A DNA stretch of 32,923 nucleotides from Chloroherpetonaceae bacterium (GTDB taxonomy: Bacteria > Bacteroidota > Chlorobiia > Chlorobiales > Chloroherpetonaceae): positions 1-32,923 of the forward strand of contig JANQGG010000031.1 of the NCBI GenBank assembly GCA_028277445.1, in the 5' to 3' direction. This document shows positions 16,959-25,333 of this stretch, in pieces. The notes beneath the pieces were generated by a model, which did no database searches, was not told the origin of the DNA, and saw nothing but the letters and a program-made list of their open reading frames with translations. Position 1 is the first letter of the stretch, and each line of letters opens with the position of its first letter. A program made the translations under genes and the position numbers.

Positions 16959-18308
16959 TTAGCGTTCTGCTACAGCAATTAATGTTGCACCTGTAGCCTT
17001 CTGAATTTTAACATTCACTTTATCGCCAACGGTAGCCGAGTTTTTTGGAAACACCACTACACGATTTGTCGTTGTTCTCCCCATCCACTGATTTTGAGAG
17101 CGTTTGCTTTCCCCTTCAATTAAAACTTCAACGGTTTGTCCGATTGCTTTTTGAAATTCTTCGGCAGAAATTCGCCGTTGGACATCAATAACTTCTGTTA
17201 ATCGTCGTTGTTTGATATCGGCTAAAACATCGTCTTTTAAATCGCGCTCCGCCGAGGTGTTCGGCCTAACGGAATAAGCAAATGTAAAGGCATAATCGTA
17301 ACGAACTTCTTCAAGCAAAGACAATGTCTGCTGATGATCCTCTTCTGTTTCGGTGCAAAATCCGGTTATAATATCGGTTGAAATTTTACATCCTGGGATC
17401 AGGTCTTTGATTGTTTTAATTTTTTCCAAATACGCTTCACGCGTATGGCCTCGCTTCATCAACTGAAGCATTCTTGACGATCCGGATTGAACCGGCAAGT
17501 GTATCGAGTTACAAATGTTGGTTTGTTTTGCAATCGTTTCAATTAACTCATAAGACATATCTTTCGGATGAGACGTTGTGAATCGTATTCTCACCGAATT
17601 ATCCACATTACTAATTTCCTCCAATAATCCAGGAAATCCGGTTTTGCTCAGTTCATCAAAATATGAATTTACATTCTGACCTAAAACTGTTATTTCTTTA
17701 AAACCTTCGTTAATGATTTTTTCAACATCATTAAGAATCGAGGATTTGCTTCGGCTGCGCTCCCGACCACGTGTAAAAGGTACAACACAAAACGCACACA
17801 TGTTATTGCAGCCCCTCATTATTGAAATAAAGGCTGATATGCCTTTTTTACGAACCGGATTAATATCGGCATAGGTTTCTTCTAACGATAGCAACACATT
17901 GGCCGCTTTTTGACCGCCTTCCGCCAGTTCAATTAAATGCGGTAGAGAGCGGTAAGAATCAGGCCCGGCAATCAGATCCAATACATCTTCTTCCTTAAAC
18001 AGCTTATCCTTTAATCGCTCGGCCATACAGCCCAATATTCCCACGATTAAGGATGAATTGGTTTTCTTGATCGCTCTTAACTGCTGAAGCTTATGGCGTA
18101 TTTTCTGCTCTGCGTTATCCCGAACTGCACAAGTATTGAGAAAGATCAAATTAGCTGAATGCTCATCTTCAGAAATACAAAATCCCTGATCCGAAAGAAT
18201 CGAATGAATAATCTCCGTATCTGAAAAATTCATTTGGCAACCATACGTTTCAATATATACTTTTGGTTGAGAGTTGGTCTCCAAACTATTATCATGACGT
18301 TCTTGCAT
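16959..18308 (-). CDS. miaB: tRNA-2-methylthio-N6-dimethylallyladenosine synthase
   Basis: A radical-SAM methylthiotransferase of 449 residues that adds the 2-methylthio group to i6A37 of tRNAs. The N-terminal UPF0004 domain has the three auxiliary-cluster cysteines (C24 in YGCQMNFSD, C60 in LNTCAVRDNA, C94 in GCMAERL). The radical-SAM cluster motif CxxxCxxC is C167-C171-C174 in RGCNNMCAFCVVPFTRGRE. A TRAM domain occupies about 380-449. EVLIEGESKR and the absence of a MtaB- or RimO-type sequence favour MiaB. The start is 27 bp after the stop of the metallopeptidase gene. A TTATCCACA match inside the gene (17599-17607) is probably coincidental. Confidence 0.95.
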   Translation of the reverse strand: MQERHDNSLETNSQPKVYIETYGCQMNFSDTEIIHSILSDQGFCISEDEHSANLIFLNTCAVRDNAEQKIRHKLQQLRAIKKTNSSLIVGILGCMAERLKDKLFKEEDVLDLIAGPDSYRSLPHLIELAEGGQKAANVLLSLEETYADINPVRKKGISAFISIMRGCNNMCAFCVVPFTRGRERSRSKSSILNDVEKIINEGFKEITVLGQNVNSYFDELSKTGFPGLLEEISNVDNSVRIRFTTSHPKDMSYELIETIAKQTNICNSIHLPVQSGSSRMLQLMKRGHTREAYLEKIKTIKDLIPGCKISTDIITGFCTETEEDHQQTLSLLEEVRYDYAFTFAYSVRPNTSAERDLKDDVLADIKQRRLTEVIDVQRRISAEEFQKAIGQTVEVLIEGESKRSQNQWMGRTTTNRVVVFPKNSATVGDKVNVKIQKATGATLIAVAER

Positions 18309-18335: not shown

Positions 18336-20531
18336 TTACTTCTCAGAATACAAATCAAGCTGGTCGTTAATCCACAAATGTTTGGCCTTAGCGCCAATCA
18401 ATTTATCGGCCGTCTTATGAGTCATGTTGGCAATCTTTTCGGCCTTTTCAAATTGATGTGTTCGTAAATACGATTGTAAAAGCAACATTTGCTTACGAAA
18501 CTCCACAACTGCAACATCAAATTCAGGTGCAGAGATAAGGCGCTCTATAACTTTACGATGGTTATAATATGTAAATAAACGTTCGGCTAAAAGCAGACTC
18601 AACAATGCCGATTGCCTGGCAGTCTGGTTTTCAGAGAGAGCCAAACTTATTTCCAGAAGCGTCTCTTCATCTGATTTAATTGAAGAAAACAAATTCATGG
18701 GTAATCCATACTCCACAGCAAGAAGACGATACCAAATCGCCAAACTGTAGCTATAGGATAGCGGGTTGTTTAGTAATCCCACAAAATCCAGTGAATCATT
18801 CCGGCTTAACCGTCCTGCTTGCCAAGCTGATGTGTTTAATATAAGATATTTTGCAGGAATTTGTTTTTCAATTCTTCTAACAAGCGAATCAGCAGTTAAT
18901 CGTGCAACTTCGAAAGGCACGTTTGAATTGAAAGCGGCGTCGTATAATTCGGTTTTGATCAGTCCGTATACTGCGCTGGAATTTTTACCATCCGTTAAGT
19001 CCAATATGCTACCAAACGCTTCTCTGGCCTGGCTAAAACGCCGCTTGTTTATGGCTTGGTTGCCCGCTTTAATTAACCTGGCTACGGTATGCGGGCATTG
19101 GGTTTGGAAAAGTGATTTACGCTCAAAACGGTACCGTGTTGCCTGCATCAAATCATCCGAAATTGGGATATTTTCTAACGATGCTTTCCAACCCTCAATC
19201 AACTCTTCAGGTGTTTGATTATAGACGTCTTTAAAATTAGCTCGTGCAAAAACCGATTTAAAGGCATCTATACCATGCGTTTGAATCAGGTATGAAACAA
19301 ACGATCCCATCAAGGTATAGCTTTTACTTCCCAGGCCTGTCCAAAACCCAAAAGCGCTGAGAAGCGTTTCGGGACGCTTTGGGGCAAGGTTCAATTTAAA
19401 CATGGCTGCCGAATACTCATTCAATGTCCAGTTCAGGGATTTGCTTTCATAGGCTTCTGCGATGCCTTCCAAAAGTCCAATGCTTTCAGATATTCCCAAT
19501 CCCGGAATGCCAAATTGCCCAAATAAAATATGAACCAGCTCGTGACGAATAGACCTCTCAAATCCCTCAAGGGTAATGTGAATTTCATTGCGCCAGATTT
19601 TGGTGAATTCCGTACGTCCGGCTCCCGTAAAGTGTTTCTTCACCACTTGATTTGGGTAAATGTATATTTTGATTTCAGGGACATACTCAAGTTTTAAACT
19701 GCGTTTAAGATATCTAATTTCATGGGTCAGCCTCCGGTTAATGTATGCTTTTTGTTCCGATGGCATTTCTTTAGGCGCATACCAACTCTCAGAAGGATTT
19801 ATCCTGAACAGGTGTTTCTCTATTTCCTGGTGTGAAGCTTCTATTCCCAGCGAATGATGATTGAAAAGAATAGCTCCCGCACTGATCACAATCCCGGACA
19901 AAATGGCAAATAAGCTCTGCCTGGATAGTTTCCTAATTAACCTTTCACGATAAGCCAGGCCAAACATCGCCACGCTCCACAAAAGGGTTTCAAGACGAAA
20001 AAGGATGTATCGGCTATCTATTTCAACAACTCTGTCGTAAATCGGGCCGGCAAAATACCCAAAGATGTGATTGAAAAAGTAAATTTGCGGCGAGCTATAA
20101 AACTGAATGCCAAGCGGCAGAAAAAGCACGCACAACCCTATCACAACATAAGCTGTTTTTAGCAAGCGCAATCCCATTGACTTCAACAGCAAGGCAAGGC
20201 TTGCGGAAAAAACGCTGCCAATAATCGGCCCAAGCAAATAGAAGAAAAACCCTTCCATCGGATTGCAATTTCGAATAAAGAGCATTGAAATCAGCATTAT
20301 GAGCAGAGGCAGGATTGTCGCTAAACCAATGTTAAGCCATAAGCTACCAGGTTGTTTTTCTGACAGAATGTACAAGCCAACGATCAGCGGGAAAAAAACG
20401 CCCTGAGCCAAAGCGAATTCATAGCCTAAAGTATTGAAGAGCGGTATTGCGGTAAGAAGCAAAGTAAAGCCCGCAATCAGGCTAAAAAAAATCAATGAAG
20501 ATGTGGAGAATTTCAACGAAGGTATGCTCAT
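18336..20531 (-). CDS. multi-pass membrane protein with peptidase-MA-like HExxH domain
   Basis: The 731-residue protein starts with about seven to eight membrane segments (to about 225). A soluble part follows, probably extracytoplasmic. It contains a gluzincin-type zinc site: H330-E-L-V-H334 in IRHELVHILFGQF, and a downstream glutamate, probably E355, in GLLEGIAEAYE, a spacing expected for peptidase-MA families. The C-terminal part (about 470-731) is helical and TPR-like, with repeated AREAFGSIL and ARLTADSL-type stretches. No substrate is known. It lies 15 bp downstream of the TPR/CHAT-like lipoprotein gene, so the two are almost certainly cotranscribed and may work together at the inner membrane/periplasm. 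The membrane topology and direction of the catalytic domain are inferred. Confidence 0.75.
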   Translation of the reverse strand: MSIPSLKFSTSSLIFFSLIAGFTLLLTAIPLFNTLGYEFALAQGVFFPLIVGLYILSEKQPGSLWLNIGLATILPLLIMLISMLFIRNCNPMEGFFFYLLGPIIGSVFSASLALLLKSMGLRLLKTAYVVIGLCVLFLPLGIQFYSSPQIYFFNHIFGYFAGPIYDRVVEIDSRYILFRLETLLWSVAMFGLAYRERLIRKLSRQSLFAILSGIVISAGAILFNHHSLGIEASHQEIEKHLFRINPSESWYAPKEMPSEQKAYINRRLTHEIRYLKRSLKLEYVPEIKIYIYPNQVVKKHFTGAGRTEFTKIWRNEIHITLEGFERSIRHELVHILFGQFGIPGLGISESIGLLEGIAEAYESKSLNWTLNEYSAAMFKLNLAPKRPETLLSAFGFWTGLGSKSYTLMGSFVSYLIQTHGIDAFKSVFARANFKDVYNQTPEELIEGWKASLENIPISDDLMQATRYRFERKSLFQTQCPHTVARLIKAGNQAINKRRFSQAREAFGSILDLTDGKNSSAVYGLIKTELYDAAFNSNVPFEVARLTADSLVRRIEKQIPAKYLILNTSAWQAGRLSRNDSLDFVGLLNNPLSYSYSLAIWYRLLAVEYGLPMNLFSSIKSDEETLLEISLALSENQTARQSALLSLLLAERLFTYYNHRKVIERLISAPEFDVAVVEFRKQMLLLQSYLRTHQFEKAEKIANMTHKTADKLIGAKAKHLWINDQLDLYSEK

Positions 20532-20546
20532 TGGCGACTTGATAAA

Positions 20547-22652
20547 TTAATAGCCATAGGCGCTATAGCCAATCCAGGAGAGATTGTTTTGCCGAATGTT
20601 TTCTTTGGCAAGCTTATGAAGCATATCGGCTATGGAATTGGATTTTGATAAAGCCAATTCAAACACGATTTTTTGTTCGGCAAGTTTTTGCCCTCTTAAA
20701 TCATGCCAAAGCAATACTTTTTCGCGTTGCTTTAAAAAAAAGTCCAGCGGAACATGTTTTATTTGCTCTGGCCTTATAAACTCCACATACCGGGCCGAAG
20801 GATTTTGAGCAGCCAATTGCAATTGTTTTGCTGATGTCAGATATGAGATTGCAACTTTTTCTTGCAAATAGGCATCGCGACCAAGGAGGTGAAACGGCAC
20901 TTCGATATTCGAAAAAATTATGAGCTGCTCAATATCTTCAAGCTCTTTTTCCAATCCGGCCACAAATACACGCGATAATTGTCTGCGATACACATTTGTC
21001 CATAACTCATCAGCTCTGGCATCTTCGTTTTCAATAAAATCCCATTTCAATTCGTCAATGGCCTCAGAGAGCGCTTCTTTAGCTAACCTGGCCTGAAAAA
21101 TGTTTGCTTTATTTCTTGCAATGAAAATAACCGTGACCTGATCATTCGAATAAAAGATATCGGCAGCTGCCACACCTTCAGGCAAAAGAGATTGCAGGCT
21201 TGGCAATGTAATGGGTATGGGCTGAAATATCTCGGCTAAATTCCGTTGGTTTTTTCTAAGGTCGCTGAGCTTGGAATAATAAAATCCCTGGAATTTCGAA
21301 AGCTCTCTTGAAAGCAAATTACGACGCACTTTTTGATCTTCCGACACCAAAAAGGCTGTCCTGTCTTTTAATTGCTGCAGAGCGCTGATGATGTGATAAT
21401 AGGTCTTCAGTTCAAGAACATCTTGCTTAAAGCCGGTAGGTATTGCCATTAAATTCAAAGAATTCAACATTTGGCGTTGCTCAATCATTTTTATGGCTTC
21501 GGTAACTTCATAGGCTTCCAAAAAACGATTTTGTTTGAGCAAAAGCGCGCTTAGTTGGTAAAACCCATCAAATATGCTTTCATTCACCACTTTTGGCAGT
21601 CCTTGAAACACGTATTCCTGATAAAGGCTTAATCCCTTTTTCAAATACTCAATGCGCTGAACCGATGAATAGCTTTTCTCCATACCCAATAGCGCATAGG
21701 CATAAACCATACCTTCAACATAATTTCTCTGCTTAAAGTAATTCAAGGCAATTTCTATATTTTGAGCTCGCCTTACCACCATGGCATTGGCTTCAAAAGC
21801 AACTTTTCTTTTGAGCATGTCATCATTGGTTAACTTGGCTTGCGCCAACGCTTTAAACATAAAAAAGCTGCCATTTCGGCGTTGATTTTCAACGCGCGAT
21901 AATGCATACGCGGTCTGGCTATAGATCTGGTATTTATCACGCGCATGTAATGACGATCCCTCTAAGCGTTTTGCCAGCGTGATAATTTTTTTAACCAACG
22001 CATTTATACTTTCTCGTGTTGGTTTACTAACCGGCGGTCTCGACCATATTTCCATTAAGCCGGCATAACCATGCATTTCTAATCTAATATCTTTGGCAGC
22101 GGATAATGTTTTATAGAGTCGGAATGCTTTGGTGGTGTTATCGGTTTTTTGATAAAGTTCCGCCAGCTCAACTTTGTCTTCAAGCGATAACGATGAACAG
22201 CTCTCATAGAGTTTGATGGCTTTATGGCTTTGGCGAATCTTCTTGTAAATTTGGGCTTGTTTTTTTAGGATCTCTTCTTTCTGAGAAAGACTGTCCGAAT
22301 TAATCAGTCTTAACGACTGCTCCAACGTGGATAAGGCCTCTTGAAAACGACCGATTTTTAGCTGAATGTTGCTTAGTAACGCATTTGATCTAAGCAATGA
22401 ATCGTTTCTTTGCATGGCGGAATCAAGAGCAATGGCGCTCTCGAGCGATTCAATTGCTTTGATGTAATTAAAACTTTCATCGTAGCCGACTGCTTCACGG
22501 TAAAAATTATCGGCCTTTTGCTGCTCTTTGCTGTAATCGTGCTGACAGGCCATTATAGCTATAACCACAGTAGCGATCACTAATGTCTTGAGAAAAAATC
22601 CAGACCTGTTATTTTTCAAACTATGTATAAAAGGGTTACGAAACATCTTCAC
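20547..22652 (-). CDS. TPR lipoprotein with degenerate CHAT-like C-terminal domain
   Basis: The 701-residue protein has a basic N-terminus, a hydrophobic stretch and a lipobox-like IAIMAC with C36, so it is probably a lipoprotein. From about 44 to about 450 it is built of TPR-like helical hairpins (for example KAIESLESAIALDSAM and EALSTLEQSLRLI). The C-terminal portion (about 495-701) follows the order of a CHAT peptidase domain: a VTVIFIARNKANIFQARL strand region, LWTNVYRRQLSR, IEQLIIFSNIEVPFHLL, VAISYLTSAKQL, and the closing LSWIGYSAYGY in place of the usual YYWAxFxLxG. The expected catalytic His-Gly and Cys motifs are not visible, so it is probably an inactive or strongly diverged CHAT domain. 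It is the first gene of the unit with the metallopeptidase and miaB. The CHAT assignment is by pattern recognition and should be tested by profile search. Confidence 0.6.
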   Translation of the reverse strand: MKMFRNPFIHSLKNNRSGFFLKTLVIATVVIAIMACQHDYSKEQQKADNFYREAVGYDESFNYIKAIESLESAIALDSAMQRNDSLLRSNALLSNIQLKIGRFQEALSTLEQSLRLINSDSLSQKEEILKKQAQIYKKIRQSHKAIKLYESCSSLSLEDKVELAELYQKTDNTTKAFRLYKTLSAAKDIRLEMHGYAGLMEIWSRPPVSKPTRESINALVKKIITLAKRLEGSSLHARDKYQIYSQTAYALSRVENQRRNGSFFMFKALAQAKLTNDDMLKRKVAFEANAMVVRRAQNIEIALNYFKQRNYVEGMVYAYALLGMEKSYSSVQRIEYLKKGLSLYQEYVFQGLPKVVNESIFDGFYQLSALLLKQNRFLEAYEVTEAIKMIEQRQMLNSLNLMAIPTGFKQDVLELKTYYHIISALQQLKDRTAFLVSEDQKVRRNLLSRELSKFQGFYYSKLSDLRKNQRNLAEIFQPIPITLPSLQSLLPEGVAAADIFYSNDQVTVIFIARNKANIFQARLAKEALSEAIDELKWDFIENEDARADELWTNVYRRQLSRVFVAGLEKELEDIEQLIIFSNIEVPFHLLGRDAYLQEKVAISYLTSAKQLQLAAQNPSARYVEFIRPEQIKHVPLDFFLKQREKVLLWHDLRGQKLAEQKIVFELALSKSNSIADMLHKLAKENIRQNNLSWIGYSAYGY

Positions 22653-22827: not shown

Positions 22828-23049
22828 ATGCGGTATTTAGGAATTGCAAAAAAAGAAAAAGGCTTAATTGTTTTACCTGATCAAAAAGATGATCAGTCGG
22901 TAACAGCATATTTTGAAGCATTTGAAATCGATGGCCATATTCTGTTGCTTCACCCCCCGGTTAGTCGCAAGCGCCAGCGACAAATTCGTGAATTAACACA
23001 GGACGCAATCAATCAACATAAACACATTTTTAAACAAATCAGAGATTGA
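22828..23049 (+). CDS. probable antitoxin partner of the Doc-like protein
   Basis: A small 73-residue protein, MRYLGIAKKEKGLIVLPDQK at the start, with an acidic middle and a basic helical end (RKRQRQIRELTQDAINQHKH). No DNA-binding fold is certain. The short length and the overlap of its stop with the start of the next gene (TTGA) suggest the antitoxin half of a toxin-antitoxin module. The start is ATG at 22828; upstream is the 175-bp divergent region shared with the lipoprotein gene. The function is inferred from context only. Confidence 0.55.
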   Translation: MRYLGIAKKEKGLIVLPDQKDDQSVTAYFEAFEIDGHILLLHPPVSRKRQRQIRELTQDAINQHKHIFKQIRD

Positions 23050-23447
23050 ACTGGATTACATTGGAAGAGCTTCTTTTTATTCATGAAGAAGTGGCTTATG
23101 AAATTAATTGCGATAACGGGATTTTAAATGCCGGTGGTTTGGAAACAGCGTTAGTCAGGCCATTTACGTCGTTCGACGGCCAGGAAATGTTCCCTGATGT
23201 TTTATCAAAAGTGGCAGTTTTAATTCACTCCATACTCGCCTTCCATCCCTTCGTTGATGGCAATACATGCGTAGCCCTGGTGGCTGCCAATGTGTGTTTA
23301 AAACTCAATCAACTGGAGCTTAAACCCTCAGAAGAGCACGCGGTTTTTTTATCATCCACAGCTCAGGGTGAAAAAAGCGTTGAAGATATTTTAGCATGGC
23401 TTGGCAAATATGTCTCTCCTGTAGAAAATAATTCCCTTAATGACTAA
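23046..23447 (+). CDS. Doc/Fic-family (death-on-curing) toxin with altered active-site motif
   Basis: The 133-residue product matches the size and helical pattern of Doc. The region GGLETALVRPFTSFDG precedes the Fic motif, which here reads H67-P-F-V-D-G-N-T-C (67-75). The canonical HxFx(D/N)GNKR has Lys-Arg where this has Thr74-Cys75. His67 is retained, but loss of the residues that bind the nucleotide phosphate predicts reduced or lost transferase activity. The only in-frame start near the family N-terminus is TTG at 23046, overlapping the stop of the upstream gene (TTGA). An ATG start would lose 48 residues. Expression is therefore probably by translational coupling. Confidence 0.78.
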   Translation: MNWITLEELLFIHEEVAYEINCDNGILNAGGLETALVRPFTSFDGQEMFPDVLSKVAVLIHSILAFHPFVDGNTCVALVAANVCLKLNQLELKPSEEHAVFLSSTAQGEKSVEDILAWLGKYVSPVENNSLND

Positions 23448-23632: not shown

Positions 23633-24094
23633 ATGGCTGGTACATTTTCACAAATTTATATCCAATATGTATTTGCAGTCAAAGGCCGAGAAAACCTGTT
23701 GCAAAAACCTTGGCGGGAGGATGTTTTTAAATACATCACTGGCATTATCAAAGGTAAACATCAAAAACCAATCATCGTTAACGGAGTAGCTGACCATGTT
23801 CATGCTTTTGTTGGAATAAGACCTGCAATGAACATATCAGATTTAGTTCGCGATATCAAAAACAATTCTTCCAATTTTATTAATGAACAAAAATTTCTGA
23901 AGGGGAAATTCAGCTGGCAAGAAGGATATGGGGTATTTTCGTATGCCCATTCACAAATTGATAGCGTTTTTCAATACATAGCCAAACAGGAAGAACATCA
24001 TAAACACAAAACCTTTAAAGAAGAATACATTTCCTTTCTTGAAAAATTTGAAATTGAATACAACGAAAAATATTTATTCGAATGGAGGGATTAA
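23633..24094 (+). CDS. REP-associated tyrosine transposase (RAYT), IS200/IS605 TnpA-like
   Basis: A 153-residue single-domain Y1-type HUH endonuclease. The metal-binding HxH is H55-V-H57 in ADHVHAFVGI, and the catalytic tyrosine is probably Y115 in SVFQYIAKQEEHH. The QEEHH tail, WQEGYGVFSY and EYNEKYLF near the C-terminus are typical of RAYT/IS200-like TnpA. There is no tnpB. It is a lone gene flanked by inverted copies of GAAGGG-centred palindromes, which is how RAYTs mobilise or maintain REP elements. A plausible ribosome-binding site (TGGAGG) lies about 20 nt upstream, which is rather far. Confidence 0.85.
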   Translation: MAGTFSQIYIQYVFAVKGRENLLQKPWREDVFKYITGIIKGKHQKPIIVNGVADHVHAFVGIRPAMNISDLVRDIKNNSSNFINEQKFLKGKFSWQEGYGVFSYAHSQIDSVFQYIAKQEEHHKHKTFKEEYISFLEKFEIEYNEKYLFEWRD

Positions 24095-24267: not shown

Positions 24268-24510
24268 ATGAAATATCCAGATAATGACTATATATCTCAG
24301 CAAGGTTTGTATTGGCCCGAAGTTTTAAGAAAAGATATCCCAAAGTCAAAAACGGCATTACAACCAATTTACGAAGCATTTACAAATTCAATTGAAGCAA
24401 TACGCGATAAGCAAAAAATTGATACTGCACTCAATTTTCAATTGTTAAGAGGATATTTAAAAACTATTGCAATAAAGTTGATGCTGCCCTCCCATGGTAA
24501 AGTTTGTTAG
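24268..24510 (+). pseudogene. truncated GHKL-type ATPase N-terminus (remnant)
   Basis: The 80-codon frame begins MKYPDNDYISQQGLYWPEVL and contains ALQPIYEAFTNSIEAI, the N-box helix of Hsp90/MutL/histidine-kinase-type ATPases. After about residue 50 the family pattern stops and the frame ends at a stop at 24510. A complete domain would need a DxGxG motif and about 150 more residues, which are absent. It looks like the 5' piece left after a deletion or rearrangement next to the RAYT. Homology is from the N-box alone. Confidence 0.4.
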
Positions 24511-25333
24511 TATGCCCAGATCGCAAAATCAATTACATCTTTTTGAAACCACAGGCACAGAGCGATTAACCCAGCTTACCGAGCGCCATCAATTAAATCT
24601 GCAATTTAAAGCCCATCCCAGAACCAAGCGGTTAAGTATTAAAATCAAACCACCGCACTCTGTTGTTATTACTTCGCCAAAGCAAATCTCAAAAGCTGAA
24701 ATTGACCGGTTTATCCTAAATAACTGGGAATGGATTGAAAATACGGTGGAAAAACATATCACGCTAGCCAAGGCAAAAGGATTAATCGGAAAGAATAATG
24801 CAATGGATCAAATTCCTGAATGTTTTTCTCTTCGAGCAATTAATGAATCCTGGAAAATTGAACTAAACCTCAATTCAAACCTAAGCAATGAAGCTTTTAT
24901 TAAAGAGTTGCCTGGTAATGGATTGCAACTTACGCTTGGAGAAAAAAACCAAGCTGAATTAAGCCAGGGCGTTTTAAAGATGTGGTTAAAAACGAAAGCC
25001 GAGCTTACGCTTATTCCTCATCTCCATGAAATCAGCAAAGAAACCGGTTTGAAATTCAGAAACGCTAAAATTCGAGCTCAAAAAACGCGATGGGGAAGCT
25101 GTTCTTCGAAACAACACATCAATCTTAATCAACATTTGCTGTTTCTCCCGCCCGACCTGGTGCGTTACATCATGATTCATGAATTGTGCCACACCAAAGA
25201 AATGAACCACTCCAAACAATTTTGGACGTTGGTGGCGCATTATGAACCCAGGTTTGAGCGTATCGAACGCGCCTTAAAACATGCCCAGGCTTTAATTCCT
25301 CCGATACTCATTCAAGACATATCACTAGCTTAA
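24494..25333 (+). CDS. YgjP/DUF45-family metal-dependent hydrolase (M48-like)
   Basis: A 279-residue cytosolic-type protein with the YgjP hallmarks: HPRTKRLSIKIKPPHSVVIT near the front, RAQKTRWGSCSSKQHINLN, then the zinc site H229-E-L-C-H233 with a third ligand H239 in HTKEMNHSKQFW. The catalytic pattern is complete. The first ATG overlaps the end of the upstream remnant; an internal ATG at 24512 (MPRSQNQ) is an equally plausible start. No substrate is known. The family is common next to mobile or restriction-type genes, but its role here is unknown. Confidence 0.82.
   Translation: MVKFVSMPRSQNQLHLFETTGTERLTQLTERHQLNLQFKAHPRTKRLSIKIKPPHSVVITSPKQISKAEIDRFILNNWEWIENTVEKHITLAKAKGLIGKNNAMDQIPECFSLRAINESWKIELNLNSNLSNEAFIKELPGNGLQLTLGEKNQAELSQGVLKMWLKTKAELTLIPHLHEISKETGLKFRNAKIRAQKTRWGSCSSKQHINLNQHLLFLPPDLVRYIMIHELCHTKEMNHSKQFWTLVAHYEPRFERIERALKHAQALIPPILIQDISLA

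Follow-up and report, generated by a model that had tools for sequence, protein, structure and literature searches.

A TPR lipoprotein with a core-less CHAT domain encoded beside a membrane HExxH peptidase in Chlorobiales

The window, a stretch of 32,923 nucleotides from a Chloroherpetonaceae bacterium related to the green sulfur bacteria (contig JANQGG010000031.1), carries two genes whose products probably cooperate in the envelope of some lineages, though neither strictly requires the other. One product is a TPR lipoprotein descended from the TPR-CHAT proteases, in which the CHAT domain, to judge from the residues that are missing, is catalytically dead. The other is a membrane peptidase with an intact gluzincin-type active site. 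Both open reading frames (ORFs) were found where the earlier note had placed them, on the same strand and 15 bp apart; that of the lipoprotein starts with GTG and has an in-frame ATG two codons in. The genes, with a third downstream of them, are as follows.

20547..22652, reverse strand: TPR pseudo-CHAT lipoprotein gene (ORF, 701 aa)
18336..20531, reverse strand: peptidase gene (ORF, 731 aa), encoding a membrane gluzincin-type metallopeptidase
16959..18308, reverse strand: miaB (UPF0004, Radical_SAM and TRAM matches), 27 bp downstream of the peptidase gene

The first protein had been described as lipid-anchored with TPRs, and the description stands: the TPR matches are significant in a single-sequence Pfam scan, and the lipobox, which reads ...VVIAIMAC36, ends in a cysteine shared by the 29 relatives. 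The protein is predicted to face the periplasm. Three regions can be delimited.

22545..22547, reverse strand: lipobox cysteine C36, invariant in 29 relatives, the presumed site of lipid attachment
21231..22532, reverse strand: TPR/helical-repeat region, approximately residues 41-474 (Pfam TPR matches; helix pairs in the model)
20550..21209, reverse strand: pseudo-CHAT domain, residues 482-701 (hhalign against CHAT domains; landmark spacing)

Recognition of the CHAT domain required family profiles, since single-protein family scans gave neither a CHAT call for the lipoprotein nor a confident peptidase call. PF12770 was not matched by the window lipoprotein in hmmscan, CHAT was absent among the Pfam families matched by the 29 relatives, and neither PHROGs nor a single-sequence search of genome_contigs with the locus returned a match. 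A PF12770 search of the bacterium's own genome has one match only (G000:C24:69641-70537, L001), in a different ORF of 1201 aa. When the 29-member lipoprotein family was instead compared by hhalign with 29-30 CHAT domains, 29 from the phylum to which the genome's own was added in some comparisons, the probability was 85-94% and p 2e-8 to 5e-6, as against p ~0.4 in the reversed control. The CHAT-like order of motifs reported in the earlier note thus scores far above background. The N-terminal CHAT region (LiivPdg..lPFeaL..yL.e.y.vsYlpSa) is present in the family, with hhalign p 2e-8 to 6e-7, the N-terminal third of CHAT mapping to approximately residues 552-618 of the lipoprotein, and artificially shortened CHAT profiles score no better in hhalign than the full CHAT profile.

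A blind search and a structure model lead to the same place. The profile of the last 302 residues of the lipoprotein (400-701), run against 394 genomes of the phylum, finds the full-length short form, which lacks the core, in Chlorobiales only. Outside the order it gives partial matches (E 1e-3 to 5e-14, at approximately profile positions 20-220), and 13/13 of those in genomes also searched for PF12770 sit in CHAT-bearing ORFs. The AlphaFold (AF2) model of the lipoprotein, a confident one (pLDDT 89.1, pTM 0.85), has Craspase TPR-CHAT and human separase as its best Foldseek matches in the PDB (E ~1e-6, prob 1.00), so that the overall TPR-CHAT architecture and fold is recognized, although whole-chain TM-scores of 0.26-0.36 make this a match of architecture and not a close superposition. 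Profile comparison, blind search and model agree that the protein is a true TPR-CHAT descendant.

What has disappeared is the middle of the domain. From the conserved Ser landmark (vSYLxSa) to the terminal W-x6-G, members of the lipoprotein family span 77-91 residues, as compared with a median of 216 residues in genuine CHAT domains, and approximately 125 residues of the CHAT core, including the His and Cys strands, are gone from all the relatives aligned. No conserved His or Cys occurs at the catalytic His (THG) and Cys (SAC) sites in the 29 relatives. The sole nearly invariant His of the domain, H588 (28/29), lies in P-F-H-L-L-G at the CHAT 'PFeAL' position, off the dyad site, so the absence of visible catalytic residues remarked on earlier holds for the family. 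At the C-terminal end, G700 of W693-x6-G700 is invariant and W693 is retained in most members. In hhalign the C-terminal end of the lipoprotein found no counterpart on CHAT (p 0.75), so we infer from the W-x6-G end, the spacing and the predicted secondary structure that the last 60 residues correspond to the strand-helix-helix-strand of the CHAT C terminus. Placement of this end on the CHAT His region, as in the global mode of hhalign, was judged less likely, in that the conserved W and the spacing then mismatch.

With the TPR-CHAT proteases (Craspase TPR-CHAT, separase-like fold; PF12770) the lipoprotein therefore has in common the succession of TPR array and alpha/beta CHAT domain, the N-terminal CHAT motifs, the C-terminal W-x6-G end and its best structural matches. 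It departs from them in being an exported lipoprotein and in having lost the core residues that carry the catalytic pair; it was seen in no CRISPR context, and its sequence does not reach PF12770 in hmmscan. Among the papers searched, none contains every term for a TPR lipoprotein with an inactive CHAT domain.

The second gene encodes, as the earlier note had it, a multi-pass membrane protein with a gluzincin site, in which the following parts are distinguished.

19863..20531, reverse strand: seven-helix membrane domain, residues 1-223 (AF2 helices; positive-inside pattern; conservation)
19530..19544, reverse strand: H330-E-L-V-H334, predicted zinc-binding/catalytic motif, with H330, E331 and H334 invariant in 22 diverse relatives
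19467..19469, reverse strand: E355, probable third zinc ligand (L-L-E-G-I-A), with E355, G356, A358 and A360 invariant
18348..19094, reverse strand: helical repeats of TPR-like kind at the C terminus, residues 480-728 (paired helices in the model; TPR_19 weakly matched in relatives)

The 22 relatives in which H330, E331, H334, E355, G356, A358 and A360 are all invariant come from 14 families, and the protein thus has the gluzincin combination of HExxH and a downstream Glu ligand as a family-wide property. Zinc binding would follow from this motif. Peptidase_MA_2 (PF13485) is weakly matched by 7/11 Chlorobiales relatives (best E 6.6e-7) and TPR_19 weakly by 4/11; the window peptidase itself reaches 12.7 bits against Peptidase_MA_2, under the curated cut-off of 32.4. 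Where tested, the family has no Pfam or NCBIfam match over cut-off, and a PDB sequence search with the peptidase gave nothing significant. The AF2 model (pLDDT 84.7) comprises a catalytic domain and helical repeats besides the seven hydrophobic helices, but Foldseek against the PDB gives no match with E <= 0.001, and the fold assignment accordingly rests on motif and profile. Within the membrane domain the loop PQxFFFNHxFGxxxGxxYD is strongly conserved, but it is modelled with low confidence. The positive-inside charge pattern predicts an N-in, C-out topology, which would place the catalytic domain in the periplasm. Relative to the Peptidase_MA_2 gluzincins, with which it shares HExxH and the downstream E in an xEGxA context, the window peptidase adds, at the N terminus, the seven-helix domain, which has a conserved loop peculiar to it, and, at the C terminus, the helical repeats.

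The peptidase is found in 132/394 sampled genomes of the phylum (about a third), nearly always as one near-full-length copy, and in 12/98 genomes of the order. The TPR pseudo-CHAT protein is present in 70/98 genomes of the order by profile (71/98 by single sequence, a count that includes two weak matches that may be TPR-only) and in 8/12 of those that bear the peptidase. In seven of these eight genomes (G000, G088, G090, G091-G094), which span four genera and three families, the two genes adjoin; in the eighth, G087, they lie approximately 1.16 Mb apart. The TPR protein was not found in the other four peptidase-bearing genomes (G089, G095-G097). The 86 genomes of f2, the largest family of the order, have no peptidase, and most retain the TPR protein, its gene lying in the miaB region. 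With start codons picked mechanically, the ends of the pair overlap by approximately 11 bp in G088, G092 and G094 and are separated by 3 bp in G090. miaB follows the pair in the window and in G088 and is missing from its flanks, which are different ones, in G090 and G092; it is probably a syntenic neighbour outside the pair, as had been supposed. An alignment of Chlorobiales includes seven named relatives, among them Thermochlorobacteriaceae, Chloroherpetonaceae and other Chlorobiales MAGs.

Adjacency in 7/8 genomes and four genera, in changed surroundings and often with overlapping ends, makes a functional link between lipoprotein and peptidase likely. That two unrelated genes adjoin by chance could appeal to their separation in G087 and to the occurrence of each alone elsewhere, but this explanation is already disfavoured and highly improbable, given that the adjacency recurs in three families with differing flanks and with overlapping or near-overlapping ends. 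The earlier suggestion that the pair forms a unit consequently survives in part: the genes stay together in most genomes that have both, but their separation in G087 and the solitary TPR protein of most f2 genomes argue against a dedicated, obligate system. Since each gene is found without the other, both proteins must also have separate roles, and the TPR protein must have one of its own where it persists without the peptidase.

On the forward strand of the window, beyond the pair, a 73-aa ORF runs into the beginning of a Doc/Fic-family ORF at 23046-23447 (region 22828-23447) that carries the motif HPFVDGNTCVAL. The two look like a phd-doc type toxin-antitoxin pair, and no search gave an identification for the candidate antitoxin, the 73-aa ORF. 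An IS200-like Y1 transposase ORF follows at 23633-24094 (+). A second HExxH-type protein, with a YgjP-like metallopeptidase domain, is encoded at 24494-25333 (+) and is apparently unrelated to the lipoprotein/peptidase pair.

Outside Chlorobiales the peptidase keeps other company. In 20/33 non-Chlorobiales genomes checked, from eight families (f7 5/5, f28 4/4, f34 6/7, and one each in f20, f38, f41, f45 and f53), the peptidase match comes immediately before that of the T9SS plug gene (NF052315) on the same strand, as judged from match coordinates; in the four cases read at ORF level (L103, L105, L107, L108) the two reading frames overlap or abut. Immediately ahead of the peptidase gene, these four loci have members of a single gene family (DUF3078 in L105). 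SprA is present in 132/132 peptidase-bearing genomes, and the peptidase in 0/92 SprA-less ones. From these associations comes an alternative in which the peptidase serves type IX secretion and outer-membrane traffic, for example in the removal or processing of proteins associated with the translocon, and the lipoprotein, an envelope scaffold in its own right, became an operon neighbour in Chlorobiales without direct partnership. It is in line with the persistence of the TPR protein in f2 genomes that have neither SprA nor the peptidase. We regard it as possible but doubtful: 86/92 SprA-less genomes belong to one family, because of which the co-occurrence may reflect one event, 170/302 SprA-bearing genomes do without the peptidase, and the adjacency of TPR and peptidase genes in rearranged surroundings would need some other reason. 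Moreover, in the seven Chlorobiales tested (G000, G087-G090, G092, G097) no plug gene was found over cut-off, though SprA is present; the plug there may have been lost or be too divergent.

In three f29 genomes the gene after that of the peptidase belongs to a single lipoprotein family, whose members carry a GWxTD domain.

L098:3794-5257: GWxTD lipoprotein gene, Pfam-confirmed
L101:3474-4835: GWxTD lipoprotein gene, Pfam-confirmed
L106:3279-4763: GWxTD lipoprotein gene

Among the papers searched, none pairs the GWxTD domain with type IX secretion. That the T9SS plug, GWxTD and TPR lipoproteins might be hidden relatives was considered and rejected, their similarity being of a signal-peptide-like kind only. 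In further families the neighbours are presumably a murA-like gene and a glycosyltransferase-like gene.

Such a mixture of neighbours, with a peptidase family that is usually single-copy and full-length, would also suit a general housekeeping peptidase of the envelope, engaged, like BepA, in quality control of proteins of the outer membrane or the cell wall, its neighbours reflecting co-expression and not a dedicated partner. BepA, a periplasmic metalloprotease with TPRs, likewise joins an HExxH peptidase to TPR-like repeats in the envelope, and it is among the weak Foldseek matches to the peptidase model, at an insignificant E of 0.11. BepA differs from the peptidase in membrane domain and family. 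General co-expression seems too unspecific to account for so recurrent and close a coupling to exported lipoproteins (TPR pseudo-CHAT, T9SS plug, GWxTD), and the housekeeping explanation is rather improbable.

The reading that we prefer, tentatively and as something short of probable, is that of a metallopeptidase that works in the envelope with lipoprotein partners differing between lineages, the partner in Chlorobiales being a dead TPR-CHAT adaptor or regulator. The peptidase would be an inner-membrane zinc metallopeptidase of the gluzincin type, its catalytic and helical-repeat domains in the periplasm, and its substrates would be proteins of the envelope or secreted ones. The dead TPR-CHAT lipoprotein would be lipid-anchored in the same compartment and, where the genes stay together, would serve as adaptor or regulator of the peptidase. 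It would then interact physically with the peptidase, in the manner of NlpI and LbcA, the TPR lipoprotein adaptors of the periplasmic proteases Prc and CtpA (PMC5686067, PMC8764530). NlpI-Prc and LbcA-CtpA are the closest working precedents, and the likeness to them is one of logic only, a TPR lipoprotein beside an envelope protease, here by gene adjacency. In contrast to those systems, the partner is a membrane HExxH protein and not a C-terminal processing (S41) serine protease, and the Chlorobiales lipoprotein bears a pseudo-CHAT domain. We consider unlikely a fuller version, a periplasmic proteolysis module whose membrane gluzincin, from a family without a name, is guided by a lipoprotein made out of a decommissioned caspase-like CHAT protease, the ancestral job of the peptidase being tied to the T9SS plug.

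The lipoprotein clearly exemplifies the reuse of a pseudo-enzyme: a caspase-like domain has lost its catalytic core and yet has been retained, in an exported lipoprotein, across most of an order. The peptidase represents a membrane metallopeptidase family, widespread in the phylum, with an invariant active site and with no Pfam or NCBIfam entry that claims it over cut-off where tested. Since the peptidase gene recurs beside that of the T9SS plug, a role in type IX secretion lends itself to direct test.
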